A stretch of 64,000 nucleotides of DNA from Candidatus Dojkabacteria bacterium (GTDB lineage Bacteria; Patescibacteria; Dojkabacteria; SC72): the NCBI GenBank assembly GCA_023229785.1, contig JALNYV010000003.1, forward strand, positions 30,406 to 94,405, given 5' to 3'. Positions within the stretch are counted from its first letter, which is position 1, and each line of letters starts with the position of its first letter. Positions 8,791 through 61,807 of the stretch are shown here, one piece after another. The notes beneath the pieces were generated by a model. The model was not told where the DNA came from. It saw only the letters and a program-made list of their open reading frames with translations, and searched no databases. The position numbers were made by a program, and so were the translations under genes.

Positions 8791-8792
8791 AA

Positions 8793-13004: not shown

Positions 13005-13006
13005 TT

Positions 13007-13417
13007 TTATACCTCTGGATACAACGAGAGTTCAACATTATACTTTATTTTGCCACCACCTGTAGCCTGCTCTATACTTACATCACAATTTCCAACCCTA
13101 ACTTTAGTCCAACCTAATGTCGGGTACGTGTAGTCAATGTCCCTGAAATTAACATACTTTATATCACCATAGTACGCTTTAATAGTAGCTACCATAGTTC
13201 CAAACCCTGCTATAGCTCCCTTGGCAATAGGCCCCCACCTTAACACATATGGACGGTCGTCAAAATAACTATCTTGCATTATCTTACCACCGTCGAGAAC
13301 ATCCATAACAACTTGTTTTTCACTATTATGGAGGTCCAAAAATGAAGGATTCAAAGGTACTGTATAAGCACCAACCTCAGTTGCGGTATCATTTAAAATT
13401 ACTCTTAATAATGACAT
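13007..13417 (-). CDS. distal tail protein candidate (Dit-like)
   Basis: I place the start at an ATG at 13417, giving 136 residues that begin MSLLRVILND. A longer frame reaches back into the tape-measure gene, but the chosen ATG sits one base after the tape-measure stop and has AGGTAG upstream. The protein is beta-rich with YVLRWGPIAKG near the middle and a strand-like C-terminus. It lies between tape measure and hub, which is the Dit or minor tail slot in siphophages. At 136 residues it is shorter than most Dit proteins (about 200-250), so it may be a reduced N-terminal Dit ring or another small tail protein. Function is inferred from position. Confidence 0.45.
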   Translation of the reverse strand: MSLLRVILNDTATEVGAYTVPLNPSFLDLHNSEKQVVMDVLDGGKIMQDSYFDDRPYVLRWGPIAKGAIAGFGTMVATIKAYYGDIKYVNFRDIDYTYPTLGWTKVRVGNCDVSIEQATGGGKIKYNVELSLYPEV

Positions 13418-27809: not shown

Positions 27810-29258
27810 TTAAACAACAACCCTGTTCTTTGATGTGGAAATATCAAAGAAAGACATGGATACATCACCAAAAATTGATTTTAATGACTCCCACTTTCTA
27901 TTTATTCTTACTTGTATATCTTTATCTTTATCATATCCTAAGTTTGAAGCTTGGTAAGCATTAAACTTAGCTAATTCAATGTCACAATTCTCCAACGCAA
28001 TATCAGAAAAATATTCGTAAACTAATGATGTATTCTTAGGTTGCTTGGCCATAAAAGTATTTATCTCGTCGTTCATTTCTTTATTTTTGCCAAGCATACG
28101 TAATGTATGCGCATACTTTATGAACACATCCCTAAATGTTGGCTCCTCTTTATACGCCTTCAAAAAATACTCACTCGCAGTGGCTATGTCCCCTTGAATT
28201 GCCTTCACAACCCCTAAATTATATAGAACTATAAAAGAAGAGTTTAAGTGGTTCAATATCAAGTTAGTATTGTCTTTCTCAACATCATATCTGCTTTTAA
28301 TAAACAGATATCTTTTATACCAAAACTCTGCTTGCTCAAAATTCTTTAACTCAAGTTGTGTGTTGCCCATACTCATAAGAGAGTCAAGATGGTCTGGCTT
28401 CACGTCAATCGTATCTTTTATATGTGGCACAGCCTCTTCAAATCGCCTTTGCGCCATTAATGCAGTAGCGAGTTGGTCTTTGGCCATGATGAAAGCGTGG
28501 AGATACCTTTCTTCATTATTCTTTAACTTAGGCACTATTATCCGAAGAACTTCATTAGCATGCTTTTCCGTACCAACAAAATCAGCCTTAGCTCTTAGAA
28601 GTTGGGCTAGATTAAGGTGGGCAAAAAAGTTGTCATTATCAATTCTAATTTGCTCACGCAGTAACTCCTCAGAACGCTGATGCTTCTTTTCCATCTCCTC
28701 TTTTGACAACGCATAACCATAATGAATAACAGATATCTTAGGCCGTATAACGGGTATCTTTTTATCAATGATTAATTGGTTGTGCACAGTACTTTCAAAA
28801 ACTGGATTTGTTTTTTTGCCGTCTATCTTCCAAGGGAACATTCTTGGATAAAACAAAGAGGCCAACATCCCTTCTTGGTCAAGAGTATTGTATATGTTGC
28901 ATAAAACTACATAATCGGTGCTATCATTCAGTATTCTCTTAACATCAGGAATGGAGTCTTCAGAAATAACCTCATCCATATCAACATAGATACAGTAGTC
29001 AACCCAATCAGGCACGTACTCCAACCCCTGATTTCTTGCTTTGGAAAAATTCTTTTCCCAAGGATACTTAACAAGTATTAACTTGTCCTCCGGGATAAAC
29101 TTCCTAAAACTGGCCTCAGTATTATCACCATACTGTGTTAAGTTAATAACAAACAAATCGGCAATAGGTAAAAGTGACTTTGCCCATTGCTCCACCCATT
29201 TTTCCTCATCTCCACTAATAGCTATAACAGCTAATTTCTTCTTAGTATCTACTGGCAT
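27810..29258 (-). CDS. family 2 glycosyltransferase with C-terminal TPR repeats
   Basis: This is a 482-residue protein. Residues about 9-200 form a GT2 (GT-A fold) domain: LAVIAISGDEEKWVEQWAKS at the nucleotide-binding start, FSKARNQGLEYV, and the metal-binding DMDE (93-96). From about residue 200 there are repeated 34-residue helical units with TPR marks (AHLNLAQLLRAKADF, LMSMGNTQLELKNFEQAE, YNLGVVKAIQGDIATASEYFLKAY). GT2-TPR proteins usually glycosylate proteins or peptides, with the TPR part holding the acceptor. It lies in the late operon between endolysin and protease, so a virion protein is a plausible target. The start has AAAGG upstream. Sugar donor unknown. Confidence 0.8.
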   Translation of the reverse strand: MPVDTKKKLAVIAISGDEEKWVEQWAKSLLPIADLFVINLTQYGDNTEASFRKFIPEDKLILVKYPWEKNFSKARNQGLEYVPDWVDYCIYVDMDEVISEDSIPDVKRILNDSTDYVVLCNIYNTLDQEGMLASLFYPRMFPWKIDGKKTNPVFESTVHNQLIIDKKIPVIRPKISVIHYGYALSKEEMEKKHQRSEELLREQIRIDNDNFFAHLNLAQLLRAKADFVGTEKHANEVLRIIVPKLKNNEERYLHAFIMAKDQLATALMAQRRFEEAVPHIKDTIDVKPDHLDSLMSMGNTQLELKNFEQAEFWYKRYLFIKSRYDVEKDNTNLILNHLNSSFIVLYNLGVVKAIQGDIATASEYFLKAYKEEPTFRDVFIKYAHTLRMLGKNKEMNDEINTFMAKQPKNTSLVYEYFSDIALENCDIELAKFNAYQASNLGYDKDKDIQVRINRKWESLKSIFGDVSMSFFDISTSKNRVVV

Positions 29259-29260
29259 CT

Positions 29261-29644
29261 TTAACCTTTCATCTTAAGTTGGTAATGGGGTAAATCTGGT
29301 TTCTTCCAACTGCCACCCCATGTTATTACGTCTAAATTTAACTGTCTCGCAACCACTATCAATGCTCCTGATAACTGACAAAATAATTCTTCTTTTTCCC
29401 AAGGGATAGCACCATTTACATACGGTGCCAAATCAAACGCCCTAGATGGGTACACATTGTGCAAACTGTGTGGAAACTTTAAATCTGATGTTCCATTCTT
29501 ATAACACTCGTTCTGCTCTGCCTCACCACGATACCCAGAGGTAACGGTAAAGTCATAATACTTTACTAGCTCATTCGCAACAACCTGTAATGTTGGGGAA
29601 CAAGTTAATAATTTATTCTTTGAATTTGTGCTAAAAACTGGCAT
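29261..29644 (-). CDS. endolysin, peptidase M15 (VanY / L-Ala-D-Glu type)
   Basis: This 127-residue protein has the M15 zinc peptidase pattern. The TSGYRGEAEQNECY segment is followed by H62 in HSLHN, D71 in AFDLAPY and H120 in LPHYQLK as the zinc ligands. Length matches compact phage endolysins such as that of T5. It would cleave peptide cross-links of peptidoglycan and release progeny. It has no signal peptide, so it needs a holin; candidates are at 39868-40227 and 58321-58638. The gene overlaps the upstream gene by 14 bases. Confidence 0.82.
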   Translation of the reverse strand: MPVFSTNSKNKLLTCSPTLQVVANELVKYYDFTVTSGYRGEAEQNECYKNGTSDLKFPHSLHNVYPSRAFDLAPYVNGAIPWEKEELFCQLSGALIVVARQLNLDVITWGGSWKKPDLPHYQLKMKG

Positions 29645-30005: not shown

Positions 30006-30665
30006 TTAAGTCTCTGTAACCCAAGCTGTTTCTGTATTTTCCAAAGAAGCCACTGTAATTAGTGGTATGTTTGCTAATATACTTGTGTGTGTTGCGGCTG
30101 CTGAACCAAACCTGATACCAACACTGCCGTCTGTTATAGTACCCCAAACCGGAACACCATTTGTACCCCCCTCATGTTTATTGTTAGCATAAAAATTAAC
30201 AACAGGGATGGTACTGGTAAAGGTATACCTGCATACGATGTTATGCAATTTAGTCATTGTTGGATTTACGTCACATGGGACACGAAGTAATGCATTCCAC
30301 GTTATGCTAGCATTTGCAACCATTGAAGCAATGCTGTATCTAGGTGTCAGATAAGAAGCATCACCACACATCATACAAGTTGCCACACCGGCAGCATAGG
30401 TTGCCTCCGCATACCAGCTTGAAGAGCTCGGACCAACCCTTGCCGTATCAATAAAATACAACATTGGCCTGTTGTTATTAGCAGCCGAGCCTTGAAATAT
30501 CCTAAATGTAGTGGCAACGGTAGTATCACTATTAGGATAATCCGCATTATTATCATACGCCCTCAATTGAGGAAGACTTGATAAACGCTCACTAAATTTA
30601 ACTTTAAACACATTTTTGTCAGTGGATACACAAGCACCATTGACTTTAAATGGATACGTTGCCAT
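30006..30665 (-). CDS. putative virion protein, paralogue of the 39073-39738 product
   Basis: This 219-residue protein shares several blocks with the product of 39073-39738: NVFKVKFSERLSS against NVFKVDFNHPLSS, YDNNADYP against YDNNAIFP, VPVWGTITDGSVGI against APVWATIPSGSMGI, and LANIP near the C-terminus. The two flank the giant 14-mer repeat protein, so all three probably belong to one structure, such as head or tail appendages. The protein is rich in Thr, Ser, Ala and strand-forming residues. No known family was recognised. Confidence 0.55.
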   Translation of the reverse strand: MATYPFKVNGACVSTDKNVFKVKFSERLSSLPQLRAYDNNADYPNSDTTVATTFRIFQGSAANNNRPMLYFIDTARVGPSSSSWYAEATYAAGVATCMMCGDASYLTPRYSIASMVANASITWNALLRVPCDVNPTMTKLHNIVCRYTFTSTIPVVNFYANNKHEGGTNGVPVWGTITDGSVGIRFGSAAATHTSILANIPLITVASLENTETAWVTET

Positions 30666-30677: not shown

Positions 30678-31076
30678 TTACAAAGAATAATCTACTTTTT
30701 TAACATAAAAAAGAATTTCGTCACTACATTGTTTGCCTGCCCATTGCCATGTCAACAACGTCTTGTGCATCTCTATTTCCTTAGAACTCAACATAGCATT
30801 ATCAGCTTTTTGCATTTCCCAAATAACTGTACCAGCAGTTAACACTTGAAAATTCATAGAGCCACTACCACCAGCATATACCACTTGGTTATATCTGCTA
30901 GCAATTGTAGCCAAATGAAATTTATCTGATACTCCAATATCGTTGTTATAATAATAATGGGTAACATACAATGTGCCTAACGTAGCTTTGTTTATAGCTA
31001 CTTGATTTTCATCTTCCAAACAAAATGTTACCCTACAACAATTATTCTGTTTAACCTTATATATTTGACTTGGCAC
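30678..31076 (-). CDS. small putative virion protein
   Basis: This 132-residue protein uses a GTG start that overlaps the TAG of the giant repeat protein by one base (TAGTG), implying coupled translation. It is strand-rich (ATLGTLYVTHYYYNND, GSGSMNFQVLTAGTVIWEM) and resembles small phage decoration or fibre-assembly proteins only in general character. The family is not recognised. Confidence 0.45.
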   Translation of the reverse strand: MPSQIYKVKQNNCCRVTFCLEDENQVAINKATLGTLYVTHYYYNNDIGVSDKFHLATIASRYNQVVYAGGSGSMNFQVLTAGTVIWEMQKADNAMLSSKEIEMHKTLLTWQWAGKQCSDEILFYVKKVDYSL

Positions 31077-34000
31077 TATATTATCTCCAATCCCGGTATG
31101 CTACCACTATTGATACTCAAATTTGATATTGTTGACTTTTTAACAATAAAGTTGTCAGCAAGGATTAACTCTGGTAGATACAACTTCAACAAAATCACAT
31201 ATTCTACTATATTTGTAGTTTTGTCTTTAAAGAACTCAATAAACTCTGACAACCTTTTCATCAGCAGTTCCTCTGCTATAAAGGATACATACCCAGAAAA
31301 AGATGAGATTGAATCTTTAGAAAATGCCGTGGTTTCTGTAGTCCTATAAAGGTTGGTAGACAGTAGGGTAACAAATTGAGAATATTTTGAAAATTTGTTT
31401 GCCACAAAATTTGCTGCCTCGTCCACAGCACCAAAAGAGGACTTTTCCATAAAAATATCACCAACAACCCGCCCTGTTGAGGTAGCTACAAGTGTAACCA
31501 CAGAATTAATAGCCGCCCTGTTTGTTGCCACAAAGGATACAAAACCAACTATATCAGCTTGAGAACCTTTCCTAAATAAAATCTGTTCTGTAATCTTCTC
31601 AACAGACCCCCTGCTCAAATCTAAGGTTTGTGAAAATCCTTCCAAAATAGCACGCTGTAGCATAACAAGAGAGACAAATCTAGTCTGCTTTTGTTTGTTT
31701 AGGTCAAATTTCTCAACAATGTAGCCCTGCTCCTCTTTACTAAGCCCAACTACTTCTGAAACACTTGCTTCTTTGTACCTATTAAACGACACCTCAGCTA
31801 CAATTGCGTCAGTAACTTCCTTGTTAAGCCCACATTTTTCTGCTATAGTATAAATCTGCTCCTTACTGAAAAACATAAGCTCCACTATTCTGGCTAAACT
31901 TACAGTTTCAGCTAAAAAGTTGACAGATTGCGCTATACTCTTTATCTTTGTTGACATAAACAAAATATCCTCGGCAAAACGTTGCATCTCATTTTTAACG
32001 TAATCAACGAGTTGTGCATATCTATTATCTGTATTTTCAGCTTGTAATTGTATAGTTTCAACCACTTTTTTGTAAAAATCTTTTATAAACAACGAGTCTT
32101 CAGAGAACATCCCTATTCGTACCGCCGAAAAGTCAATAAATTGGGCAATCTTTAAGTCTGCCAATAACTTATCAAACTCCACCACCTCTGATATATGTCT
32201 GGTACTATCCTTCTCAGATAACAGTGTTTGTACCATACCAACAAGTTTTACAGCCAACATGCTGACTGTTTCTGTTAGCCTCTCCTCCCGCTCCGCTTCA
32301 TAATCAACTGTCTCAGGTATGTATTTTAAATAAACATCGGCAAATCTGACTATATTGGAAATTTGACTGATAAACTCTTTATCAACCCTCAAAATATTGG
32401 AAACCTGCTTAGTCAAAAACTTACTTAATATAACATAGTTGGAAACTCTTGCATAAACAATATCTTCAAGAATAACTTTGTTTGCAATTTCAGTTGATAG
32501 CCCTTTATCGTTGGTCAGTTTCATTGCTAATCTAAAAACACTATTTTTGTCAGCAAGAATCAGGTTGGCCACTTCTTGTTTACTTATCTTATCCAAAACC
32601 AACTTATTCACAACCCTAACAACTATTCCCTTATCAAAAGATATCCTGTTAGCTAAACTTTCTACTAGTTTTTTATCCCCATAAAATTCATTTGAAACTT
32701 TGGCTGAAACTTCTTTATCCAAGTTCAAATATGTAGCAATCCGTCTCTTCTCTGTTTGTTCAATATTTACTTTATTGTTTATTCTTTCTACTAATTCTTT
32801 ATCTCCAACAATAATAGAGGCTACCTTTTCAACAAACTCCTTATCCCCCAGAAGTCGGCTGGCTATCATACTCTTTACAATCTTATCCCCATTAATTATA
32901 TTTGATATCTCTTCCACCACTTCCTTATCCGTAGACAGATGGGAAGCAATTCTATTTACTAACTCTTTATCACCAGATAGGTCATTTGCGATTCTTCTAG
33001 ATACCTGTTTATCTGTGTCAACAAAACAACAAATCCTTACAGCCTCTTCTTTATTTATTCTTAATCTATTTGATAATCTAGCCACAACCTCTTTATCACC
33101 AAGTAGTATGTTGGACATCTCTTGGAATACTTTTTTCTCCATCTTCAATTTACTTGCTACTCTTCTCGTGCCAACTCGCATAACATTCATATAGTGAGCA
33201 ACACGAGAACTTAAGTGCTTATCAACACTTAATATCTGTGCTAAAGTATCCTTTGATGTCCTCTCTACAGTCATTGCATTCGCAATGCGCCGGGAGGCAC
33301 TATATTCACCTATAACCAATTGTGCTATATTTTGAGCAGATGTTTTTTCCCCAATAACTTCTCCAGCAACCCTACTACCTCTTATATATGCGGGAGAGAC
33401 TAAGTTTGATACTTGTACCTGCCCTAATAAATCTGAATACTCAAATAAAGTAGCCTCTGGGGTAGGGGGTAGAGGAATCCAATCCTTAATCAAAATATGG
33501 TCAAGAAATTGTGTTTTGCTATTTCCAAATTTGAATGTTGCGAAAGAATAGCCACCTTTCCATGTTGTTCCCGGAACTGCAATTGCTAAATCCCCATCAA
33601 CTGTAACCCTAATTTGAGTACCAAATACACAATTCCAATAATGATACTGACTTGAATTTAGGGGTACTAAATTTGTATAAAGCCACTCATTACTGTCACC
33701 AAACCTATAGTATGCATTCTCCCCCCCATAAATTTCAAAAGTTCTATTTCCCTCAGTTATTAAATAATCCACATATATAGCTTGGTTTGCTGTTCCTGAT
33801 GCATAATTAATTTTGTCAATATACACCCCAGAGTACTCATTCATAATAGAAGCGTATATGTTATCAATATATAAGTATACTGTGGCTACCCCGTAAATTG
33901 GCCAACTGGCTAAAACCTGTAACTTTAACACAGTTGTAGCGGTTGATTTATAATCTATATAAAACTTAGTAAAGGCTGTTTTAGAAAGTAGCGATTCATC

Positions 34001-37000
34001 AATGTATGTGTTATCCAATGCGGTGTTACTTGTGTTTAAAAGAGAAAATGTTACTCTACTATTAGTATTTTTACTTCTTTTTAAACTTACAAAATATCTT
34101 ATATCTATACCCGTAGGTACAGAAAAAGTATCAGTACGCACCTTACAAAGTTGAGAATAACCCCCCATATGATATATGCAATCCAGTTTCAATGAATGGT
34201 CTCCCCAAACAGCTACAGCATCATCAACAAAAGTAGGAGAACCTACTGTGCATAAAGCATACCAACCATCAGTTACCATTCCCGCCCAATTTCGTTCCAA
34301 TGTTCCATCTGAAACTATGGGGTTGTAAGAAGATGCGTCAAATGTTGGTAGAATAAATTTCAATATATTAGGAATATCACTTCCAATTTCATAACCACAT
34401 CTAAATGTTGCCTCTGTCCAGCCACCATTACTTATATCTAAATGCATAGAACTACTAGCTAGGTCTAAAACAGCACTTGAATGCCTTTCTACAATTAACC
34501 TCTGGTCTGTATTTAACTTTGACAGAGAACCATAAACATAAAAATTAAACATTAAACTTGGTATTGCTGTAGGGAAAGAAGAAGAGCCACCCTTAACTGA
34601 GCAAGTTTTATTGTAATTGTTAAGAAACAAAGACTTAGAGCCACTATATTTAAACACAGAACTAATAGTAGGAGTGCCTTTAACTGTTGTCCAATGGGCA
34701 GATAACGGAGATACTTCAAAATTACCATTAGCTACTGTTGGTAACACCCAATAAGTCGGGCAACCTATTTTTAACCAAAAAACAGTAGTAGAAGTAGAAG
34801 TATAATTTATAAAAAAATTACTCCAGCCAACATCGGGAACATTAAAACTAAATGTGCCATGAGCAAGTTTATTATTAGATGTGTCATAAAGTTGCATATA
34901 AAAATGCCCAATGTCCCTTTTAACAAGCCATGTATAGTAATTTATAGACGGACAAAGAAATATGTTATACCGAATTGGTACATCAGTAACCATACTAAAT
35001 GTTGCAGAGGTTGCCCACGATTGAGCTGCTTGCATCAGACTAAATCTGTACGCACCTAGTCCATCTCTACAACCGTATAGATAATCTTCCATACTTATTT
35101 GATAGACATTACCAGATATCGCACTCCAATAATCAGGGTCAAAGAATGCCCCTTCTTCAAAACTATAATTTTTTACCGTTGGTACTGCAGTGGCATCATC
35201 TAAGTTAAGTTTTAAATAAATATCATTCGCCCCATTACCCCATTGAGCAAATTCCATCTCAAAATAGTTTCCAACTAACGTTGAAAGGGTAGGTATAGTT
35301 CTCTTTATACGCCCACCCCCATCAATCCAGAGACTCTTATCCCCAGACCACACTTTATTTGTATGTGGTTGGGGTGAAACAGTAGTACCAAAAGTAGTTC
35401 GCACACTAACTACCCCATAATCACTTGAGTCCCACCCATCCTCATCTGGGGCAGTATAAACAGGATATAGTTCAAAACCTTCAAAAAATCTATAGACATT
35501 GTTAGGGTCTGATGGGGGGGTGGCAGAAGCAAAATAATTACCATAATATAACCAATACTTATCTTTATAACTATCTCCACCCCTAATATCAGTAGTAGCA
35601 ATAGTTGATTGCATCGCAAACTGCATTTCTGTTTGGTTGTAATTCCAAAAATTCTTAGCAATTCTGTCTATTTGATGCGTTCCAAACACAACTCTGACAT
35701 CATCACCAGTAACTAAAAATGTAGTGCCGGGAGATGTTCCGTCCCAATAATCAACATTATAGCCGCGTGTAAAAGCTAACTCAGGGGTATTGTAGCAGGA
35801 GGGAACACAACTAATCATTGGTATACCATACCCAGAATTTCTAGTCAAATACTTGAAGGACCAATTTTCACCATAGTTATACGTTCTAAAGACACCTAGC
35901 TCACCCGCAAAATAACTATCCCCCTCTTGTTTAAATATAGCAAATATGTCTATTATTGTGTTCTCATAGTTTTCACTTCTATATATTTGCAACCCACCTG
36001 CGTGCCTATGCTTCCAAGGTTTAACCCCTACTTCATTAAACATACTAAACGTTGCCCAAACAGAACCGGGTTGAGATATAGCCACCATTTGGTCGCATGG
36101 AAGATTAATAAAGTTATTCCCCGGTTGTGTTGCTGCTAATTTAGCAATACAAAATATAATTGTGCCGTTGTCTGTGACACGGAGACCAGCACCATTATCA
36201 GTGTAATAAGGACCGGTTGTTGCAATTGGAGAATTTGTCATATATGGGGCGTTAAAAATAAGATTTGTCTTATCATAAGTAATATTATGAGTAGACATCC
36301 CCTCTGTTGTTGTCCCCGCAATACTTCCGTCTAAATTTTTCCAAGTAATTTTATCATCCGAATAATAACAACCAATTCCCCTATGGTAGTTACCATAAGT
36401 ATCCCCTAGTAATTCCGTAAAAGTAATAACCATATAATATCTGCCACTTTTGTCAGTACATACACCACCACAATATACACCTCTTTTTGGAACATATATA
36501 GAACCAAAATAAGCAGCTACATGCTGCCTTTCTCCCCATGTAACACCCCCATCATCAGATTCTTGAAAACACTCACAGTAATTTATGCTTCCATCTTCTG
36601 CTGGCGCGTCATCCCCAGCAACATATTCATACCGATAAAAAACAGTAAGATTGTCAGAGGAGTCTATTAATATTCTTGGATATGTCCCATCATCAACACT
36701 GGTTCTTTGCGTGAAGGATGTTATATCATAAGTTGCATCTGATACATACACATATTGGGGGGAGTTATGCCCACTGTTGACAATATATATATACCCCTCA
36801 GAATCCATATTCATAGAAGGATAATAATGGGAATCCCAATCCGGTAAATCGCATATACTAGTTTGTGGCCCAAATGTTCCAGTAGTGTGGTTATAATAAC
36901 TAATATAAGCCTTAGCATCTTCTTGAGTACGCCAACATATATAGGTTTTGTCACCTCTTCTCATTATACCGTTCTGGGCAGAAGGGCCTATGGCTTCATT

Positions 37001-38029
37001 AGCATGTCCATTTGTAGCTAAAGTTTTAATATTTCCACTATTAAACACAAAACCAACAGTATAACCCGGACATAAAGTTCCATGTGGAGTAGGAAAAACA
37101 ATCTCAGCCCTTCTCGTCCACGCACTGTTCCACCAATCGTCCGGGGCAGTGCTAGCTACATATCTAAACGTGCCAACAGCAGACCAACTACCTTCGTTAT
37201 CATTGGCATCCCAAAACTTACCCTTGACATAATAAACAGTATCCAGAGAAAGTGGAGTAGAGGACGCATATGCTATAGTAACAAATGCGCCAGAAGCTGA
37301 GGTTAAAGAAGCAACAACAGATTTATTTGTAGCCCAACAAACATTCGTTATTTCCCCACCACTATACCCAGAACCAACAACAACCCCCATTTTGCTTGTC
37401 TCATCATAATCTCCATAAGAAGCTGAGGTAGAATCTTCATATTTAAATCCAAGAATTGGTGTACCATCAGAAGTATCAACAATACCATCAAATAATTGCA
37501 ACCCACTAACAGTTATTGAAGCTGGAGCACTTGGTGCTGTGTCATCATAGTAAATGTTAAAGTACATCCCTATTTCTGACACATATGCTTTTCCAACATT
37601 GGTATGTTTTCTAGCCCTGATTGGTATACCTACTAATCTATTAATTGAACCATACCTGTCAGATGCCACTGACAACGCTTGGGTATATGTTGTAAATGTG
37701 GTCGTTAACACGGCTGTCCCAGCAGAGGGCTCTGACCAAGTACTCCCATCCCTTAGTATAACACCCATAGACATCTGAAACACAGCAGCCGCTTGTTTTC
37801 TTCCTCGAAAATACAAAGTAAGCCCATCATACCCACAACTCTTAGGCCATGTATTGCATATTGTAGCAGAAAGATAGCAAGAAAAAGAAGAAACTGCACT
37901 TACATTATCAATAATATATGAAGTATCATTAGGGGTCGAATAAGGAGCATTTAACTTACTCCATAAAGGTGTGGTAGTCCATACCCTAGTATTCCAATCA
38001 GAAACAGGGTACATATATGCAACAGCCAT
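31076..38029 (-). CDS. giant modular surface protein: BNR-like propeller plus 14-residue repeat array
   Basis: This 2,317-residue protein is the largest in the window. Residues 1-290 are beta-sandwich. Residue 296 onward has a DUF2341-like start (DDWWNSAWTRRAEI). About 330-790 resembles a BNR/sialidase-type propeller (YPSMNMDSEGYIYIV, YPRILIDSSDNLTVFYR, ESDDGGVTWGERQ). About 810-1,500 holds jelly-roll, carbohydrate-binding-like segments (NYSFEEGAFFDPDYW). From about 1,530 to 2,300 there are some 45 tandem 14-residue repeats. It may be a glycan-binding or glycan-cleaving appendage with a long stalk. It is flanked by two paralogous small virion candidates. Catalytic residues were not identified, so enzyme activity is uncertain. 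Confidence 0.6.
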   Translation of the reverse strand: MAVAYMYPVSDWNTRVWTTTPLWSKLNAPYSTPNDTSYIIDNVSAVSSFSCYLSATICNTWPKSCGYDGLTLYFRGRKQAAAVFQMSMGVILRDGSTWSEPSAGTAVLTTTFTTYTQALSVASDRYGSINRLVGIPIRARKHTNVGKAYVSEIGMYFNIYYDDTAPSAPASITVSGLQLFDGIVDTSDGTPILGFKYEDSTSASYGDYDETSKMGVVVGSGYSGGEITNVCWATNKSVVASLTSASGAFVTIAYASSTPLSLDTVYYVKGKFWDANDNEGSWSAVGTFRYVASTAPDDWWNSAWTRRAEIVFPTPHGTLCPGYTVGFVFNSGNIKTLATNGHANEAIGPSAQNGIMRRGDKTYICWRTQEDAKAYISYYNHTTGTFGPQTSICDLPDWDSHYYPSMNMDSEGYIYIVNSGHNSPQYVYVSDATYDITSFTQRTSVDDGTYPRILIDSSDNLTVFYRYEYVAGDDAPAEDGSINYCECFQESDDGGVTWGERQHVAAYFGSIYVPKRGVYCGGVCTDKSGRYYMVITFTELLGDTYGNYHRGIGCYYSDDKITWKNLDGSIAGTTTEGMSTHNITYDKTNLIFNAPYMTNSPIATTGPYYTDNGAGLRVTDNGTIIFCIAKLAATQPGNNFINLPCDQMVAISQPGSVWATFSMFNEVGVKPWKHRHAGGLQIYRSENYENTIIDIFAIFKQEGDSYFAGELGVFRTYNYGENWSFKYLTRNSGYGIPMISCVPSCYNTPELAFTRGYNVDYWDGTSPGTTFLVTGDDVRVVFGTHQIDRIAKNFWNYNQTEMQFAMQSTIATTDIRGGDSYKDKYWLYYGNYFASATPPSDPNNVYRFFEGFELYPVYTAPDEDGWDSSDYGVVSVRTTFGTTVSPQPHTNKVWSGDKSLWIDGGGRIKRTIPTLSTLVGNYFEMEFAQWGNGANDIYLKLNLDDATAVPTVKNYSFEEGAFFDPDYWSAISGNVYQISMEDYLYGCRDGLGAYRFSLMQAAQSWATSATFSMVTDVPIRYNIFLCPSINYYTWLVKRDIGHFYMQLYDTSNNKLAHGTFSFNVPDVGWSNFFINYTSTSTTVFWLKIGCPTYWVLPTVANGNFEVSPLSAHWTTVKGTPTISSVFKYSGSKSLFLNNYNKTCSVKGGSSSFPTAIPSLMFNFYVYGSLSKLNTDQRLIVERHSSAVLDLASSSMHLDISNGGWTEATFRCGYEIGSDIPNILKFILPTFDASSYNPIVSDGTLERNWAGMVTDGWYALCTVGSPTFVDDAVAVWGDHSLKLDCIYHMGGYSQLCKVRTDTFSVPTGIDIRYFVSLKRSKNTNSRVTFSLLNTSNTALDNTYIDESLLSKTAFTKFYIDYKSTATTVLKLQVLASWPIYGVATVYLYIDNIYASIMNEYSGVYIDKINYASGTANQAIYVDYLITEGNRTFEIYGGENAYYRFGDSNEWLYTNLVPLNSSQYHYWNCVFGTQIRVTVDGDLAIAVPGTTWKGGYSFATFKFGNSKTQFLDHILIKDWIPLPPTPEATLFEYSDLLGQVQVSNLVSPAYIRGSRVAGEVIGEKTSAQNIAQLVIGEYSASRRIANAMTVERTSKDTLAQILSVDKHLSSRVAHYMNVMRVGTRRVASKLKMEKKVFQEMSNILLGDKEVVARLSNRLRINKEEAVRICCFVDTDKQVSRRIANDLSGDKELVNRIASHLSTDKEVVEEISNIINGDKIVKSMIASRLLGDKEFVEKVASIIVGDKELVERINNKVNIEQTEKRRIATYLNLDKEVSAKVSNEFYGDKKLVESLANRISFDKGIVVRVVNKLVLDKISKQEVANLILADKNSVFRLAMKLTNDKGLSTEIANKVILEDIVYARVSNYVILSKFLTKQVSNILRVDKEFISQISNIVRFADVYLKYIPETVDYEAEREERLTETVSMLAVKLVGMVQTLLSEKDSTRHISEVVEFDKLLADLKIAQFIDFSAVRIGMFSEDSLFIKDFYKKVVETIQLQAENTDNRYAQLVDYVKNEMQRFAEDILFMSTKIKSIAQSVNFLAETVSLARIVELMFFSKEQIYTIAEKCGLNKEVTDAIVAEVSFNRYKEASVSEVVGLSKEEQGYIVEKFDLNKQKQTRFVSLVMLQRAILEGFSQTLDLSRGSVEKITEQILFRKGSQADIVGFVSFVATNRAAINSVVTLVATSTGRVVGDIFMEKSSFGAVDEAANFVANKFSKYSQFVTLLSTNLYRTTETTAFSKDSISSFSGYVSFIAEELLMKRLSEFIEFFKDKTTNIVEYVILLKLYLPELILADNFIVKKSTISNLSINSGSIPGLEII
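31150..33440 (-). repeat. array of about 45 tandem 14-residue (42-bp) repeats
   Basis: From residue about 1,530 the protein falls into register every 14 residues. Examples are DKELVNRIASHLST, DKEVVEEISNIING, DKEFVEKVASIIVG, DKKLVESLANRISF and, further on, SKEEQGYIVEKFDL and SRGSVEKITEQILF. The consensus is (D/S)-K-x-x-x-x-x-(I/V)-(A/S)-x-x-(L/V/I)-x-(F/L/G). About 26 units run without interruption; after a break near 32,330 the array continues with more varied units almost to the C-terminus. DNA identity between units is low, so the array is old and kept by selection on protein. Confidence 0.9.
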
Positions 38030-38032: not shown

Positions 38033-38536
38033 TTATTTCCTAATAAATAATCGTCTTAAAAAGTCATGCGTGTCATTATCTTTTTGCATAGACACACAGT
38101 TTTCAGCTACTGTAAGTATTATAGGTATAGATAAACTTTTTATATTACTACAAAACATAGCACAACATAAAAACGAGTCTCTCAACCTGCTATCAAAACT
38201 AAAAAAATTACTAAGCTGATAGAACTTCTCAATAAAAGGAGTTACATCTTTTTTATTGTCCAAGCACACTAAAAAATCAGCTACAACGGGGTGGGGTAAA
38301 GAATTTGATAACTCCCTTATGGCAACAACACAACTTTTATATAAGTCAATACAACCATATAAAGACGGGCTACTATTGTACAAAACACTCATATCCATTA
38401 GGGTAATGTTTTGACTTAATAGTATTTCATCCAAGTTAAACTTATCTTTCCTTATCAAGCTCACAATTACCATGTATGTGTCACCAGATAGCTCAGAATA
38501 TTTTAAACTCCGAAAAAACGAGAGGCCAAATTTCAT
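38033..38536 (-). CDS. hypothetical protein
   Basis: This is a 167-residue mainly helical protein (MKFGLSFFRSLKYSELSG) with several Cys and hydrophobic helices. It overlaps the upstream gene by four bases (ATGA) and directly precedes the giant repeat protein in transcription. I recognise no family. Position suggests a helper or chaperone for that protein, which is inference only. Confidence 0.45.
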   Translation of the reverse strand: MKFGLSFFRSLKYSELSGDTYMVIVSLIRKDKFNLDEILLSQNITLMDMSVLYNSSPSLYGCIDLYKSCVVAIRELSNSLPHPVVADFLVCLDNKKDVTPFIEKFYQLSNFFSFDSRLRDSFLCCAMFCSNIKSLSIPIILTVAENCVSMQKDNDTHDFLRRLFIRK

Positions 38537-39069
38537 TTATAATTCAATCTCTTCAAAAAACGTTTGTCTATGCTATTATTGCTATCCACACCCTTTTTGA
38601 TACCATTTCCCAAAAATGACATATCTTTCAAAAAATGTCTTTTTTCTTCAATCAACAACGAAATTGATACTACTTCCTTTTTATCAATATAATCCTTTAG
38701 TTTATTGTACCGCTCATTTAATCTAATAACCCACTTATCCATGTCCTTACTTTTACTTAATTTTATTTTCTTAAACTGATTATTATACTCATTAAGCAAC
38801 GCTTCCCGTAACATAGATAAGTCATTTATACCATAGATAGTTTCTTTGACTATATAGTTCTTTGTGTCCCCAACTACACCACTAAGTTGTTGTGGCATAA
38901 CACTTATCATATCCGATTCCATATAATATTTATTATAACCACTCAGTTCTCTAACTATTCTAGCCCCATCAGTTATAATAAGTTTATGTATCTTCCCAAC
39001 AGGATGAAAAGTGGCCCAATTTTTTATTGGACCACTCATCTTTCCACTATCGTCTATTGCATAAACCAT
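38533..39069 (-). CDS. hypothetical protein
   Basis: This is a 178-residue protein with a beta-rich N-terminal half (MVYAIDDSGKMSGPIKNWATF, KIHKLIITDGARIV). The C-terminal half is highly charged and helical (NEYNNQFKKIKLSKSKDMDKW). I know no matching family. It lies three bases after the paralogous virion protein and before the 167-residue gene, as part of the appendage block. Confidence 0.45.
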   Translation of the reverse strand: MVYAIDDSGKMSGPIKNWATFHPVGKIHKLIITDGARIVRELSGYNKYYMESDMISVMPQQLSGVVGDTKNYIVKETIYGINDLSMLREALLNEYNNQFKKIKLSKSKDMDKWVIRLNERYNKLKDYIDKKEVVSISLLIEEKRHFLKDMSFLGNGIKKGVDSNNSIDKRFLKRLNYK

Positions 39070-39072: not shown

Positions 39073-39738
39073 CTAGTCTGTAATCCACCCCTCTTGGGTT
39101 TTTTCTTGACCGGTTTCAGGAATGTTAGCAAGGTATGGACCAGCAAAGGGAGTATTCTCCCTACAATGCACAATTCCCATACTACCTGATGGTATCGTTG
39201 CCCAAACAGGTGCAGCCTCAGTTCCAGCAGTTGAAGGGGCTACTTGGTTAAAAAACCACGACACAGTAGGTGTGGTACTTATAAATGAATACCGCAATAA
39301 CAAGTCAAACCCTGCTGACGAAGATGTTTGCATAGAAGCAACAACCTTAACTTGCATATTAAAATAGATACTTCCACCACCAAAACTGTCCAATGTAGCA
39401 CTTTGTTGTGTTACGTAATGAGCAATACCAACCATCAAATTTGTAGTTCCAGTGTTGGTAGCTGCGTAATTTGTTGGAAACCACGTTGTGCCACAATCAC
39501 CAGTACCATTAGACGTATCCATCAATGCTATCATTGACTTCTCTGCCGCACTCATCCCAAATATGTCATTTACTGTACTTACAGCAGTATCTGTTGCTGG
39601 AAATATAGCGTTATTATCATATGTTTCATACCTTACCTTGGAAGATAAGGGATGATTAAAATCAACCTTAAAAACATTCTTAGCAGCATACCCACTCTCC
39701 CCAGAACCATACCCGTATGCTCTACCTTTTGTTGCCAT
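39073..39738 (-). CDS. putative virion protein, paralogue of the 30006-30665 product
   Basis: I use the ATG at 39738, which has AAGGAGATAG in front; a GTG one codon earlier is less likely. The 221-residue product matches the 30006-30665 protein in several blocks, including NVFKVDF, YDNNA, the APVWATIPSGSMGI stretch and LANIP near the end. The N-terminus is Gly-rich (GRAYGYGSGESGYAAK). The pair flanks the giant repeat protein, so duplication within one structural module is likely. Confidence 0.55.
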   Translation of the reverse strand: MATKGRAYGYGSGESGYAAKNVFKVDFNHPLSSKVRYETYDNNAIFPATDTAVSTVNDIFGMSAAEKSMIALMDTSNGTGDCGTTWFPTNYAATNTGTTNLMVGIAHYVTQQSATLDSFGGGSIYFNMQVKVVASMQTSSSAGFDLLLRYSFISTTPTVSWFFNQVAPSTAGTEAAPVWATIPSGSMGIVHCRENTPFAGPYLANIPETGQEKTQEGWITD

Positions 39739-39753
39739 CACTATCTCCTTAAT

Positions 39754-40242: not shown

Positions 40243-42408
40243 TTAGTCAATAAAGTTTAAGTTACAATTACATCCCAAATGTGGAGGAAACATTGCTGTA
40301 ACATCTGCTATATTAAAGATTTTACCTTCGTTAGCAAAACATAACTCACATGTATTTTCTCCGGGATTAGTCTCCCAAACACACCTCGTATGCCCAGCTT
40401 TGTTAGCCTTATATATCTTAGCCATAAGCAAGGCACGCTTTTCACCCTCAACTACATATGTTGCTAAACGCCTCTTAAAAGTTAAAAGCAGTGCTGAGAG
40501 TTCCTCGTTACTCAAACTCTCATTAACAATATGCCCCCTTAACTCACTATAAAAGTTATCAACATAACCTTTATTCCATGTCAACAACTCTGACAACTCG
40601 TAGTTGTCCTCACCATTAGTGCTATTATAAAAAATTCTCTTCAGATGGGACTCTAACAAACTATTAAAAGCGGAAAAACCACCAATTAAAGAAAGTTCTA
40701 TGGCATATTTATCTTTTAAATCTTTCTTACTATAAATATCTTTTGACATGTTATCAAATATTCCACTAAAAGAACTTTCAAAAGAAAAGGTAGCTGTCTT
40801 TGCTTCCTGAACTTCCACAGTCTTCTTAGGATTATCTTCATCCTTTGGTCTACCATCTGGGTCAACAGTGGTCTCAGTACCTTGGTATGGAAGTGAGTTA
40901 TTTTTAAACAACTCAGGCAAACCTTCATCCTGCTCTTTCTGTCTACGAAACTTCTCCGCCGCCATATCGTAGCCCATAACAGATATAAAAGTCTCTATAG
41001 AAATAACACCTAACTCATACAGTTTAATAGCAAAATTTCTAACACGCTCTTCATCTTTTAATAACAAAGAATCAAACTTAAAACTTAATTGAGTATATGT
41101 GAAACTATTAGCCACTGCTATATCATTTCCGATTTTTGTTAAAATTAACTCTAGCTCACCTCTCACAACATCCAAACCAACCTCAGTACTTATAAAAGAA
41201 GCCCAGTCTTTAGCAGATTGGCCAGAGGTGTTACCATCAATAAGCAAAGAGGGCACATGCAAAGCACGCAATACATCCAAATCAGCTTGTTTGTATTTAT
41301 CAACGAACTCCAAAATTTTTCCATCAGGACCAATATCCTCTACGGTTAAGTCCGGTCCCGGCCAAACTATTGCGTTTGCTCTCTTAGGGTCAGTTAGTAT
41401 ACTTATTAAAGCATTAACTCTACTCGGAGTAGGGATATGATAAACTTTATTTTTCTCTGAATCAGGCAAACCAATTTTAAAAATAGTAAACCTATTTATC
41501 ATACCATCTATTGTAGCCTCATCTACAGCTTGCAATCTTCTCTTATTTGCTATAGCAGTAAAAGTCTTTATGAAGATTGATTCACCCCAAGCTTTATAGT
41601 CCTTACAATTTCTTTTCAAATGAAAAGAAACATTTGGGTCTAGTACAATATCCGTATTGTTGTTAATACTCTTTTTCCAATAGTCGGGAATAGTCTTAAC
41701 TAAAAATTTATCGGCATCTGTTACAGGTTTCTTTACCTTGTCTTTAATCTCCCTAGATAAATTCAAAACCAATCTCTCATAACCAAGTTTAGCTAAATCT
41801 TCATCTGCCGCCAAAGAAAGAGTATCCAGAACCCTTATCGAGGTTGGAAGAAAAAAGCTAGGTGCGGACATACCGGGAACCATCTTTACATTTTTTTCCC
41901 AATTAAACACAAATACACTATCCCCATCGGTTAAGTATGAATCAAATATCTTTCTGATAGCCGCCCGCATACCGGGAACGGGAAGAATAATTCCCTTTAA
42001 ATTAATTAATCCAGTAATAGTGTTGACTGTACTAAACCAATCATTAAGTACTTTCTGTAACTCTTCATTATCTGTTGAAAATTTACCTTTTGTTACACCA
42101 AAGTCACAAAGAAGGTCAGCTACAGAAGAACAAACCCCTTCTCTACTTCTTAACTTTCTAGCTAACTCCACTACTGTTGTTCTATCATCAATATTAGCAT
42201 CTGTATAATCTTTTATATCTTTTAGATATATTGAAGAAGTTCTACTATTAACTTTTGAGTGTATAGCAACAGCCTGTGAAGACATCTTATCACTAACAAC
42301 GTCAACTGATGCCCTATTTATACTTGGTAAACCACTATCTCTTTGATTACTTCTGTTCTGCTTGGGTCTAGAAAATTTACCCGTTCTTTTATCTTTCCAA
42401 TAAGCCAT
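40243..42408 (-). CDS. portal protein fused to a MuF-like C-terminal domain
   Basis: This is a 721-residue protein from the ATG at 42408 (GGAG upstream; an upstream in-frame TTG is rejected). Residues about 30-500 read as a portal: QAVAIHSKVNSRTSSIY, GVCSSVADLLCDFGVTKG, a stem region, then DVLRALHVPSLLIDG and SAKDWASFISTEV. The C-terminal 150 residues end CVWETNPGENTCELCFANEG and PPHLGCNCNL. This is the Cys-containing end motif of the Mu gpF / SPP1 gp7 minor head family. In most phages these are two genes; here they are one chain. The portal forms the DNA entry ring, and the MuF domain would project into the capsid interior. It directly follows TerL. Confidence 0.82.
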   Translation of the reverse strand: MAYWKDKRTGKFSRPKQNRSNQRDSGLPSINRASVDVVSDKMSSQAVAIHSKVNSRTSSIYLKDIKDYTDANIDDRTTVVELARKLRSREGVCSSVADLLCDFGVTKGKFSTDNEELQKVLNDWFSTVNTITGLINLKGIILPVPGMRAAIRKIFDSYLTDGDSVFVFNWEKNVKMVPGMSAPSFFLPTSIRVLDTLSLAADEDLAKLGYERLVLNLSREIKDKVKKPVTDADKFLVKTIPDYWKKSINNNTDIVLDPNVSFHLKRNCKDYKAWGESIFIKTFTAIANKRRLQAVDEATIDGMINRFTIFKIGLPDSEKNKVYHIPTPSRVNALISILTDPKRANAIVWPGPDLTVEDIGPDGKILEFVDKYKQADLDVLRALHVPSLLIDGNTSGQSAKDWASFISTEVGLDVVRGELELILTKIGNDIAVANSFTYTQLSFKFDSLLLKDEERVRNFAIKLYELGVISIETFISVMGYDMAAEKFRRQKEQDEGLPELFKNNSLPYQGTETTVDPDGRPKDEDNPKKTVEVQEAKTATFSFESSFSGIFDNMSKDIYSKKDLKDKYAIELSLIGGFSAFNSLLESHLKRIFYNSTNGEDNYELSELLTWNKGYVDNFYSELRGHIVNESLSNEELSALLLTFKRRLATYVVEGEKRALLMAKIYKANKAGHTRCVWETNPGENTCELCFANEGKIFNIADVTAMFPPHLGCNCNLNFID

Positions 42409-42423
42409 TATAATCTCCAATAA

Positions 42424-44247
42424 CTAAATCGTGAGTGCTATAGGTTCTAACAAACTCATTCCAGCAAATCTTCTTCCTATTGTCTTTTCATCATATAGCT
42501 CTTTGTATCTGGCATTACCATAAAGTAATGCAGAGTACAGGTCTTTTTTACCCGGTGCCGGTCGCCCGGTAATGGGGTTTACACTCTCTATATCAAATCT
42601 AACACTTTTTCCGGCAGGGACCACCTTAATACGCATCAACTGACTAACCAACGTTTCAACATGCCCCTGTATCTCAAGTATCTCTATATTATCTGGTCTA
42701 TCTCTTAAGGCTTTTGGTAAAAGCAGTAAACAATTTACTAAATGACCTTTTAAATGACCATTATATGTTATATTATCGTCCTGCGTTGTAGTGTACAACT
42801 TCAAAATAGGCAACCCTTCTCCCTCTTTATTCCTCTCTGGGTCAAATATGGGCTCAACTGTTTCCCCAACAATCTCTCTGACTATTCTTCTATCCCCTAA
42901 TAAATCAGCAACTTCATACCCACCCCCACGAGCATCCATAGCAATAGCTATTATATTAAACTTCCTATAAAGTTCATATATTAAATTTACCCTATCCCTC
43001 AAGGGCATTTTATTGCGCTCGTATGCATAAACAACAGCGTTATAGTTTCTGTATAGACATTGACCATCATCAGCAAGCATTGGACATTTACAACCTAAAT
43101 TTGCAACACTGCACTTCGCTATGTCTCTATCCGTATAGTCTAATTGGCCAACCTTAGTCACTACAAAGGCACTATTATCCGATGAGGGGGCAGTATCTAT
43201 ACTTAGTATGCACTGTCCAGAACAACTTGATAAAGCATTAGGGTATGTGTCAGTATCCTTATCCAACAACACATTACTACACTTCTCTATGGCATCTATA
43301 GGAAAATACCCACCGGAAACATCCATTGGAACATTTTTATTTTCTGCCATCCAAACTTCCATATCAACGTTAGGACTGTTTTTCTTCTGTATTATTTTCT
43401 TCCTATCAATACCCCACAAAGTTTTTATTGAGCCATCAAGTTTAATATAAAAAGAATCTTCAAAGTTAAACTCAAAAACTGATATATCAGAAGGTCTTAC
43501 TTCAATATCATTAAAAACAACCTCAGAACCACTCTCCAATATTGATGTTAAATGCTTAACTTCTTTCCAAAAATCCCTGAAAGAATAGTCAATTGTAGAG
43601 GTCTTTATACTTTGGTTACAAACCACCTGTTCATCTTCACCCTTGGAGGGGTCATACAACACGTTAAGAAACGGGTCTATTATTTGCTGCACAAAAGTAG
43701 AAGGAAGAAGAAATGATTCATCTTGAGCTAATTTTAACGCTCTCAAGCCTCTAATCGTGCTTCCGTCTCCTAACGGAACTGCATACACAATAGACCCATT
43801 TTTAAATTGAATTGACCAAAAGCTAGGGTCTTTATTGACAACCCTACGAACATCATATAATGCTGCCCTAGCATATCCATACCCTTTTTGACCAGATAAT
43901 CTTCCAAGAACAACTTTCTCCATTTCAAGCATAACACTTTTAGATTGTCTAAAACCAGCACCACCTATTATCATTAATTTATTGTTAGGATATAAAAGGG
44001 AAGACAAGACATAATAAATAGCTACTAGCACAGACTTACCCATACCTCGGCTACACAATAAAACATTGTAGTGTTTCTGTCTTCCCCAATCTCTTAATAT
44101 AACCCTATGGTGAGGCGACAACTTTAAGCCAAGTATATCGAGTGCCGCTATATCCATGTGGCGGCGATAAAAATAAATGGGGTATAACTTTTTTATAATC
44201 TCACCCCTAGTCTCTAATGTCTTTACAGCCTTACTATACTCTGTCAT
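42424..44247 (-). CDS. terL: terminase large subunit
   Basis: The start is placed at the ATG at 44247, giving 607 residues; an ORF 24 codons longer lies wholly within the upstream gene. The ATPase shows a Walker A (CSRGMGKS, 65-72) and a Walker B (LAQDE, D176 and E177). The RNase H-like nuclease has D351 (SIDTAPSSDNSAF), D438 (AMDARGGG) and D569 (KKDLYSAL). It packages DNA into proheads. The nuclease domain contains a Cys-rich insert between residues 379 and 397 (C-x6-C-x-C-x8-C) that could bind metal and is not usual for TerL. The gene overlaps the small terminase candidate by 14 bases. Confidence 0.92.
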   Translation of the reverse strand: MTEYSKAVKTLETRGEIIKKLYPIYFYRRHMDIAALDILGLKLSPHHRVILRDWGRQKHYNVLLCSRGMGKSVLVAIYYVLSSLLYPNNKLMIIGGAGFRQSKSVMLEMEKVVLGRLSGQKGYGYARAALYDVRRVVNKDPSFWSIQFKNGSIVYAVPLGDGSTIRGLRALKLAQDESFLLPSTFVQQIIDPFLNVLYDPSKGEDEQVVCNQSIKTSTIDYSFRDFWKEVKHLTSILESGSEVVFNDIEVRPSDISVFEFNFEDSFYIKLDGSIKTLWGIDRKKIIQKKNSPNVDMEVWMAENKNVPMDVSGGYFPIDAIEKCSNVLLDKDTDTYPNALSSCSGQCILSIDTAPSSDNSAFVVTKVGQLDYTDRDIAKCSVANLGCKCPMLADDGQCLYRNYNAVVYAYERNKMPLRDRVNLIYELYRKFNIIAIAMDARGGGYEVADLLGDRRIVREIVGETVEPIFDPERNKEGEGLPILKLYTTTQDDNITYNGHLKGHLVNCLLLLPKALRDRPDNIEILEIQGHVETLVSQLMRIKVVPAGKSVRFDIESVNPITGRPAPGKKDLYSALLYGNARYKELYDEKTIGRRFAGMSLLEPIALTI

Positions 44248-45028
44248 ACTTTGACTCTCGCTCACCAACAAACAAATAAGCATCCTCCACTGACATATCT
44301 GCGAAAGCTGCCCCTTCAAATAAAACCCTACTTATTTCCTTACGCTCATATTTATTCAACAACATTTTTAGCTCATTATACCTAAACGCATCCATCAACT
44401 CTGGAAACTCCTCAAGAGTTTGCTCAAACTGTACCGCCAAGGAAGCAATATTATCCTTGCTCTCAGTTAATTTTGTCTTTTGACGGTCCCCTTCTGACAC
44501 CCCTAAGTAAGTACCAAGCCTTATCTGTGCGTCAATTAAATTCTTTATTGTAGTACTTTGCTTCTCCCCACTATACTGAAGTTCTTGTGAAATCCTCAAA
44601 GAAAGAATACAATAATTATCTATTATTGTATCCAAATCTTTTCTTTTGTCCAAAAAAGGATACTCATACAATAAGGTCTTCTTTATTTTTTTTAAGGCCT
44701 CTTCTTCATCTGCCTTACGCTCTTCACGTACAGATGTTGTATTCGCCGCCTTCCTTTTATCCTTTAACTTATACCTTTTTTGTTCTGTTTTTGTAGGTGA
44801 AAAGTAACCCCCTGTCTGTTCCTGAATTCTAGCTGGAAGATTTGTAATTTTGGGGGTTGGGTAGTCATTCCCATTAAAATCCAAACCTTGGAGTAAGTTA
44901 TTAAAATACAACTTAGACAACTTTTCTGCCTCTTCCATCTCCACCTGCTTGTAATAAACCAAGAAATCCTTTATCACAGTTGTGTATTTTTCAACATCTT
45001 TTTCATCTTTTATATCAAAAAGTAACAT
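44234..45028 (-). CDS. small terminase subunit candidate
   Basis: This 264-residue protein is the first gene of the late operon and lies directly upstream of TerL. It is strongly helical and charged (KRYKLKDKRKAANTTS, ADEEEALKKIKKTLL), with YCILSLRISQELQYSG and a helical C-terminal region ending GERESKYDRV. Small terminases bind the packaging site and form ring oligomers; they share little sequence, so position is the main evidence. The start has a strong GGAGGTAG site. Confidence 0.55.
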   Translation of the reverse strand: MLLFDIKDEKDVEKYTTVIKDFLVYYKQVEMEEAEKLSKLYFNNLLQGLDFNGNDYPTPKITNLPARIQEQTGGYFSPTKTEQKRYKLKDKRKAANTTSVREERKADEEEALKKIKKTLLYEYPFLDKRKDLDTIIDNYCILSLRISQELQYSGEKQSTTIKNLIDAQIRLGTYLGVSEGDRQKTKLTESKDNIASLAVQFEQTLEEFPELMDAFRYNELKMLLNKYERKEISRVLFEGAAFADMSVEDAYLFVGERESKYDRV

Positions 45029-61247: not shown

Positions 61248-61321
61248 TAGGCCGGGGTGGATTTGAACCACCTGCCTCATGCTTATAAGGCATGGGCTCT
61301 AACCAATTGAGCTACCGGCCC
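61248..61321 (-). tRNA. tRNA-Ile(TAT)
   Basis: A full 74-base cloverleaf folds. The acceptor GGGCCGG pairs with CCGGCCT (first pair G-U), the D-stem is GCTC/GAGC, and the anticodon stem CATGC/GCATG has loop CTTATAA. The T-stem GGTGG/CCACC has loop TTCAAAT. The anticodon reads AUA, a codon common in this AT-rich genome. No CCA is encoded. Confidence 0.93.
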
Positions 61322-61365
61322 GTTGTTCATAAAATAATTTTCTCTAAGTTTCTTAAAGTAGTTTG

Positions 61366-61701
61366 TTACAAATATTCTATCTTAATAAATTCATCAGCCA
61401 TTTGGGAATCAACCCATTTTTTAATCCTAGCTTCCACTATAGCTAGCTCACCACTGCGCTTTGCTACTTCTAGTTTTAACCATTTCTGAAACGTTTTGGT
61501 GTTTACTAATCTTTTAAACGCAGCTTTTCTATTTTGTGCTTGGCTTTTGTACTCACGAGATTCACCCCTAGCTCCAGACGCATGGTGTATTATTCTAATA
61601 CCTGACTCAGTTTTATTTTGGTGTTGTCCACCATGTCCCCCGGAGCAAAAAGTTTGGAGTTCAAAGTCTTTTTTAGTTATGCTAAAAAGTAACTCTCTCA
61701 T
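61366..61701 (-). CDS. GGQ-domain release-factor-like protein (ArfB/RF-1 domain type)
   Basis: This 111-residue protein contains CSGGHGGQHQNKTESGIRII followed by HHASGARGESREYKSQAQN. That is the catalytic GGQ loop and flanking strands of class I release factors and ArfB-type ribosome rescue enzymes. It lacks the codon-recognition domains. ArfB also has a basic C-terminal tail that enters the mRNA channel; here the tail is short and ends KKWVDSQMADEFIKIEYL, so rescue by the ArfB mechanism is uncertain. It would hydrolyse peptidyl-tRNA in the ribosome. It sits between tRNA-Gln and tRNA-Ile, with a strong GAGGAAAG ribosome site. Confidence 0.75.
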   Translation of the reverse strand: MRELLFSITKKDFELQTFCSGGHGGQHQNKTESGIRIIHHASGARGESREYKSQAQNRKAAFKRLVNTKTFQKWLKLEVAKRSGELAIVEARIKKWVDSQMADEFIKIEYL

Positions 61702-61722
61702 ATGCTTTCCTCATATAAATTT

Positions 61723-61793: not shown

Positions 61794-61807
61794 ATATCTT
61801 TAGTTTA

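Follow-up and report, generated by a model that had tools for sequence, protein, structure and literature searches.

An unnamed 14-residue repeat array behind the BNR_4 head of a putative virion adhesin

The window, by which is meant the whole stretch of 64,000 nucleotides analysed here, encodes a protein of 2317 residues (P0001, the window protein) that ends in a long row of 14-residue units, and this raises the question of what kind of repeat it is and what it may do for the protein that carries it. The reading favoured here, with moderate confidence, is that of a virion adhesin, of the tail-fibre or spike type, in which a BNR_4 head is combined with a long shaft of unnamed 14-residue modules. 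The parts of the protein and the neighbouring genes on which this reading draws are collected in Table 1.

Table 1. Coordinates in the window of the array gene, its parts and its neighbours (residues are those of P0001; loci L001, L002 and L025 carry relatives of the array gene).
Feature	Position	Strand	Remarks
127-aa protein	29261..29644	-	Peptidase_M15_4-like, E 1.6e-4, 22.6 bits vs cut-off 25
219-aa protein	30006..30665	-	homologue directly downstream of array gene in L001, L002, L025
132-aa neighbour	30678..31076	-	weak homologue (E 1.65e-4) downstream of array gene in L002
Adhesin-like ORF, 2317 aa (P0001)	31076-38029	-
C-terminal tip	31079..31159	-	residues 2291-2317; by eye like ends of P0002, P0003
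Array, more diverged block with register breaks	31160..32155	-	residues 1959-2290
Array, unbroken block	32156..33394	-	residues 1546-1958, ~29 units
Whole array	~31160-33424		ends placed by eye
Weak DUF2341-like stretch	35459..35572	-	residues 820-857; E 0.19, below cut-off
BNR_4 domain (PF15892)	36266..36946	-	residues 362-588; Pfam, E 3e-13
Weak Ig-like match, Ig_Rha78A_N	37163..37324	-	residues 236-289; E 0.0096, below curated cut-off
N-terminal domain	37535..38029	-	residues 1 to ~165; boundary by eye
178-aa neighbour	38533..39069	-	homologues downstream of array gene: L001 (E 3e-8), L002 (E 2e-4)
222-aa protein	39073..39741	-	closer homologue of the protein downstream of the array gene in L001, L002, L025; here upstream of array gene
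Tape-measure gene	13419-18257
Portal gene	40243-42420
TerL gene	42424-44319

A first-pass annotation of this DNA had described an array of about 45 copies, and both profile and autocorrelation analyses bear this out over residues ~1546-2290. Residue identity within residues 1522-2317 was 0.168-0.196 at lags of 14, 28, 42 and 56, compared with a maximum of 0.110 at any lag from 2 to 59 in 300 shuffles, and the hydrophobicity autocorrelation of the same residues also peaked at these lags, with values of 0.23-0.32 against at most 0.161 in shuffles. Periodicity is much weaker in the second half of the array than in the first, since lag identity was 0.223-0.251 in the first 420 of these residues (shuffle maximum 0.126) and 0.116-0.144 in the last 376, where two of the four lags lay above the shuffle maximum of 0.130. 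A 14-column profile placed 45 units above threshold in P0001, against 2.3 by chance, with 34 neighbours exactly 14 residues apart and four at 28; an earlier profile, trained on P0001-P0004, placed 44. The cyclic Viterbi path through P0001 holds 48 complete units across 755 residues and keeps its register until a first break at residue 1959, so that a long unbroken run does exist as first described, at a length of ~29 copies from residue 1546 and not 26.

Protein searches revealed seven relatives with the same layout (P0002-P0008, 1516-2641 aa), a count that is no measure of rarity, as each search scored ~8,000 candidates and only those sharing exact words were visible. Over all eight proteins the consensus is [LFG][DE]K[ETI]xxx[RK][LI][AS][NEQH]x[LIV]x; the consensus given earlier, (D/S)-K-x5-(I/V)-(A/S)-x2-(L/V)-x-(F/L/G), was right, and it can be extended by R/K at 8 and by N/E/Q/H at 11. 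Cyclic profiles were trained on P0001-P0004 first and then on P0001-P0008, and the first of them found 43 and 71 units in P0005 and P0006, which lay outside its training set, where 1.7 and 2.6 were expected. With array ends placed by eye, the number of complete units on the best path is 48 in P0001, 47 in P0002, 45 in P0003, 56 in P0004, 41 in P0005, 76 in P0006, 39 in P0007 and 31 in P0008. A super-period common to these arrays was rejected, as no value was shared by P0001-P0008: the best diagonals, in units, were 3 and 7 (P0001), 1 and 7 (P0003), 2 and 18 (P0004), 2 (P0005), 5, 8, 17 and 10 (P0006), 10 (P0007) and 2 (P0008), and the best diagonal of P0002 lay at lag 100.

Units of the same type also occur ahead of the main head part, as runs of 2-4 near residues 163-221 in five of the eight proteins (P0004-P0008), with two further units at 384 and 412 in P0004. 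The BNR_4 domain starts after these early runs, at residue 513 in P0004, 320 in P0005, 293 in P0008 and 297 in P0007. No early runs were found near these residues in P0001-P0003, for which single hits at 1335 (P0002) and 303 (P0003) were recorded. By eye, the C-termini of P0007, P0008 and a further protein, L025, carry short repeats of ~10 residues (ITDEDLxxI-like) after the array.

The first-pass annotation knew of no named phage repeat family of this form, and none was found in the libraries searched here (Pfam, PHROGs, NCBIfam and PDB profiles). When the whole window protein was searched, no Pfam, PHROGs or NCBIfam match above cut-off fell within residues 1522-2317, and a PDB profile search with the array gave a best E of 0.2. 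The best family match to 36 slices of the eight arrays was DUF685 (E 2.3e-4, 21 of 25 bits, with cut-offs for the first slice only), and no family among the best 25 of 31 recurred in more than two of the 36 slices. Membership of a named repeat family was therefore rejected for the libraries searched. The repeats of YadA-like heads, which form a left-handed parallel beta-roll, also have 14 residues and thus the same length as the window repeat, with another consensus; the YadA head family is absent from the seven Pfam families listed for the window protein up to E 10. The literature, covered at the level of titles and abstract openings and with most subscription journals outside that coverage, yielded nothing on this 14-residue repeat.

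It had also been proposed that unit length is kept at the protein level while the units differ in their DNA, and tandem repeat searches, diagonals and the gap counts of pair alignments all uphold this. TRF detected no 42-bp tandem repeat in the array DNA and reported just two short rows there (periods 7 and 11, scores 31 and 34). The best diagonal between P0001 and P0003 spans 629 residues at 31% identity (score 920 vs 345 for the next diagonal) and that between P0001 and P0002 spans 494 residues at 36% identity (856 vs 363); this method is ungapped by design, so its weight lies in the score distance to the next diagonal, at least 10 residues off. MAFFT alignments of the same two pairs contain ungapped stretches of up to 559 and 448 residues. 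For five of the six pairs aligned, these being at like identity, the head has 3 to 10 times as many gap openings as the array (head/array openings per 100 aligned residues: P0001-P0002 4.43/0.93, P0001-P0003 4.12/0.43, P0002-P0003 3.64/1.20, P0004-P0005 3.54/0.83, P0005-P0007 3.97/0.88). Two observations count against a shaft. The sixth pair, P0007-P0008, has about equal values (1.53 in the head, 1.36 in the array). Across the six array alignments there are 42 gap runs, counting those at the ends, of which nine have a length of 14 or 28; the remaining runs, with lengths from 1 to 197, are not multiples of 14. The alignments thus suggest that indels are scarce, and they bear out change by whole units only in part.

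These data also bear on whether the array could provide reach without stiffness, as a disordered linker or as short amphipathic helices strung flexibly together, which is considered distinctly unlikely. Disordered linkers tolerate indels, whereas indels are scarce in five of the six pairs, and the composition of the P0001 array (proline 0.4%, glycine 3.6%, hydrophobic residues 45%) also speaks against a linker of this type. In its favour are the unit number, which varies freely among the relatives, the helices with breaks that AlphaFold2 predicts at low confidence, and the slightly higher fraction of disorder-promoting residues in the array (0.44, against 0.40 in the head), a figure that in turn counts against a shaft.

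The BNR-like head that had been proposed for the window protein was confirmed by profile match as BNR_4, with a PF15892 score well above the curated cut-off (50.2 vs 27.3 bits). BNR_4 is present in seven of the eight proteins and in L025, a further BNR_4 protein with an array that came from a pattern scan of IMG/VR. No BNR_4 was found in P0006, which has the longest array and shows a DUF2341 trace below the cut-off, and this counts against the shaft reading. DUF2341 (PF10102) did not reach its cut-off of 23.4 bits in the window protein (12.6 bits) or in the relatives P0005 (20.7), P0006 (17.0) and P0007 (17.2). Compared with BNR_4 proteins as described by Pfam, whose model covers the head only, the window protein adds an array that is without any model.

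If the window protein is a virion adhesin, its BNR_4 head would probably bind or cleave surface glycan, the protein would serve host attachment, and the number of modules would set the distance between the parts that flank the array. As first proposed, the array may be a solenoid or stalk that keeps the BNR-like head at a distance from the virion. The array would then be stiff and extended and, by analogy with tail fibres, which work as trimers, it would act as an oligomer, probably a trimer. An array of 53 units would be ~110 nm long as one continuous helix and ~70 nm long if packed like the adenovirus shaft.

By scanning for the repeat pattern in at least 237 loci and at least 5061 ORFs, at least four distinct genes with 20 or more 14-type spacings were identified; among the matches listed, these are the genes for P0004 (loci L001 and L003), P0007 (L002, L004 and L014), L025 and L043. 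All pattern scans required a 42-nt period, so the frequency at which 14-residue arrays were met is no sign that a length of 14 is preferred. In a pattern scan of genome contigs, no ORF had at least 20 such spacings among the matches listed, and a scan of genome contigs with the array gave no relative. Among viral contigs scanned with array or protein alignments, those of L001, L002 and L025 were the only ones to yield BNR-type relatives. A tblastn search of 50,697 phage records returned no match for the window protein or P0007 (E 1e-3), none for L025 or the 208-aa partner (E 1), and one for P0006, in its head, at E 0.4.

The L043 protein, from an uncultured viral contig, has a different head, Laminin_G_3 (E 3.5e-19), together with an array of 61 units by its own profile and 42 by a BNR-array profile built without it. 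When compared by hhalign, slices of the window family matched L043 slices at 97.3% (E 2.1e-11) and L043 as a single sequence at 94.0%. As periodic sequences inflate profile scores, controls outweigh E-values here, and three other 14-residue arrays gave 3.1% (SEYIAENLDKNIAY arrays, as alignment), 0.10% single and 0.49% as alignment (L334, VQSDLAQTF), and 0.03% and 0.03% (L323, SDRLIYTEGK); with hhalign values of at most 3.1%, kinship of these arrays with the window array was rejected. The window and L043 arrays, as judged by their sequence pattern, are the same 14-residue module, a likeness that is not proof of common descent. They have in common K at position 3, R at 8, a hydrophobic residue at 9 and a polar residue at 11; L043 differs in its LamG head and in having Q at 11, Y/F at 12 and T/S at 7, and its array is very basic (K+R 21%, D+E 1%), unlike that of the window. 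The same tblastn search gave no match for the L043 array alone (E 10), while 47 records matched the whole protein, the best 20 of the 47 all within query residues 40-331, mostly the LamG part.

Shorter arrays extend this picture. A second L043 ORF has 19 units by the L043 profile and 10 by the BNR-array profile, and L355 has six and three, respectively. L355 matched L043 slices at 98.3% and window-family slices at 31.8%, which suggests a tie to the window family through L043, with a weak direct match. This weak match, the gap lengths and the share of disorder-promoting residues slightly weaken the shaft reading and slightly strengthen that of a flexible linker. L080 reached 10.3% against window-family slices, and had no tblastn match to the phage records (E 0.01).

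Several side observations were made on the scanned contigs. In the L043 ORF at 3-3374 (-), an ARMET_N Pfam match lies inside the array at residues 911-953 (28.6 bits vs a cut-off of 26.9); its total is just above the cut-off, no single stretch passes, and it is probably a chance match to repetitive basic sequence. L323 encodes (8341-13257, -) Laminin_G_3 domains (2.9e-33) followed by a very long array of the SDRLIYTEGK type, strand-like by eye and unrelated in sequence to the window array. A strict array, VQSDLAQTFxVxNx, also unrelated to that of the window, is found in L334 (4351-5439, -). L319, L263, L285 and similar contigs carry the SEYIAENLDKNIAY arrays in proteins of ~700 aa that look coiled-coil-like by eye, and an ORF of a Nostoc contig (L173, 3064-3567, -) has near-identical GDKRFIHRVLNSIN units that are perhaps just a DNA-level repeat.

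A strict unit, few indels in five of the six pairs, 31-76 units per array and reuse of the module behind an unrelated head together fit a spacer or shaft in an adhesin, with a reach that would follow from the number of units. A broader proposal, for now a tentative one, is that phages use the K-x4-R-hydrophobic module generally as an extension cassette of unsolved fold, placing 2 to more than 70 units behind unrelated host-binding domains (BNR_4, LamG and others) or between them and so setting their reach.

How the module folds bears on whether such a shaft is oligomeric. AlphaFold2 predicted helices at low confidence for the 796-residue C-terminus with four sequences (pLDDT 34) and, for eight units with 28 rows, a helix in each unit that begins at position 3; most of these helices end at positions 11-13, and the fifth continues into the unit that follows. 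By Chou-Fasman averages, the L043 array leans to strand and the BNR family gives a mixed picture. Neither AlphaFold2 model provides a confident fold, which counts against the shaft reading, and no choice is made between helix and strand. The one helix per unit of the eight-unit model, together with the strict unit length and the conserved small A/S at position 10, would suit a single-chain solenoid that stacks on itself, with each unit forming a single coil, or a short helix and a linker, in place of an oligomeric shaft. This solenoid is judged unlikely: the model has a pLDDT of 52, Foldseek searches of PDB and BFVD with it gave nothing better than E 2.9, as expected of such low-confidence models, and the runs of just 2-4 units seem short for a capped solenoid.

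The shaft reading favoured here can also be set beside known kinds of shaft. Like phage tail-fibre shafts and the triple beta-spiral, the window protein would combine a head with a shaft whose length depends on how many short repeats it has. The adenovirus-type spiral is a trimer of ~15 residues per unit, each with two strands and a Gly/Pro turn, whereas the window unit has 14 residues, no Pfam or PDB sequence match, and no position at which every unit keeps a Gly/Pro turn; the low proline and glycine contents of the array argue against such a turn. Heptad coiled-coil stalks are similar in that 14 equals two heptads and AlphaFold2 gives helix at low confidence. They differ in that the 3.5 harmonic of the mean hydrophobicity profile of the eight proteins is not the strongest (2.88 at 3.5, the heptad, 4.48 at 2.8 and 3.81 at 4.67), and L/F/G at position 1 and D/E-K at 2-3 fit a/d positions badly. 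These profile-based harmonics are in line with the earlier remark that the array is not a plain heptad coiled coil.

The phage structural setting that had been assumed for the array gene is borne out, as it lies among virion genes that include those for TerL, portal and tape measure. In the window and in L001 it is located between the portal and tape-measure genes and not after tail genes, which counts against the shaft reading and is what might be expected if the array served as a ruler for assembly or as a structural element associated with the head. Such a role is judged very unlikely, as BNR_4 or LamG domains are attached to the arrays, the array gene is in the tail or lysis part in L002 and L355, and the window has a tape-measure gene of its own (Table 1). 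The array gene is downstream of a tape-measure gene in L002, near a tail-fibre-like gene and an endolysin in L355, and downstream of a major head protein gene in L043; near L025, the upstream genes include one for a head protease/head protein.

A homologue of a ~220-aa protein directly follows the array gene in all three BNR-type loci compared (L001, L002, L025), and none was found in the stretches compared at L043 and L080. In the window, two such proteins flank the array gene, one on each side, and neither has a Pfam match above cut-off or a PHROG match up to E 0.01. L002 also carries, downstream of its array gene, a homologue of the 127-aa Peptidase_M15_4-like protein. Elsewhere in the window, a family 2 glycosyltransferase match with TPR repeats (27810-29258, -) is found inside the structural gene cluster, and six tRNA genes are clustered at 61248-62877 (-).

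On the shaft reading, the window protein belongs to a known kind, the repetitive shafts of viral adhesins, and what is new is the repeat, which is without a model in the libraries searched. If the shaft reading is true, an unnamed repeat would join the small set of known fibre-shaft solutions, annotators would gain a signature for adhesins that are now unnamed, and a simple protein part would be available whose length may track its unit number. In addition, the family raises the structural question of how 14 residues fold when they are repeated up to ~76 times.
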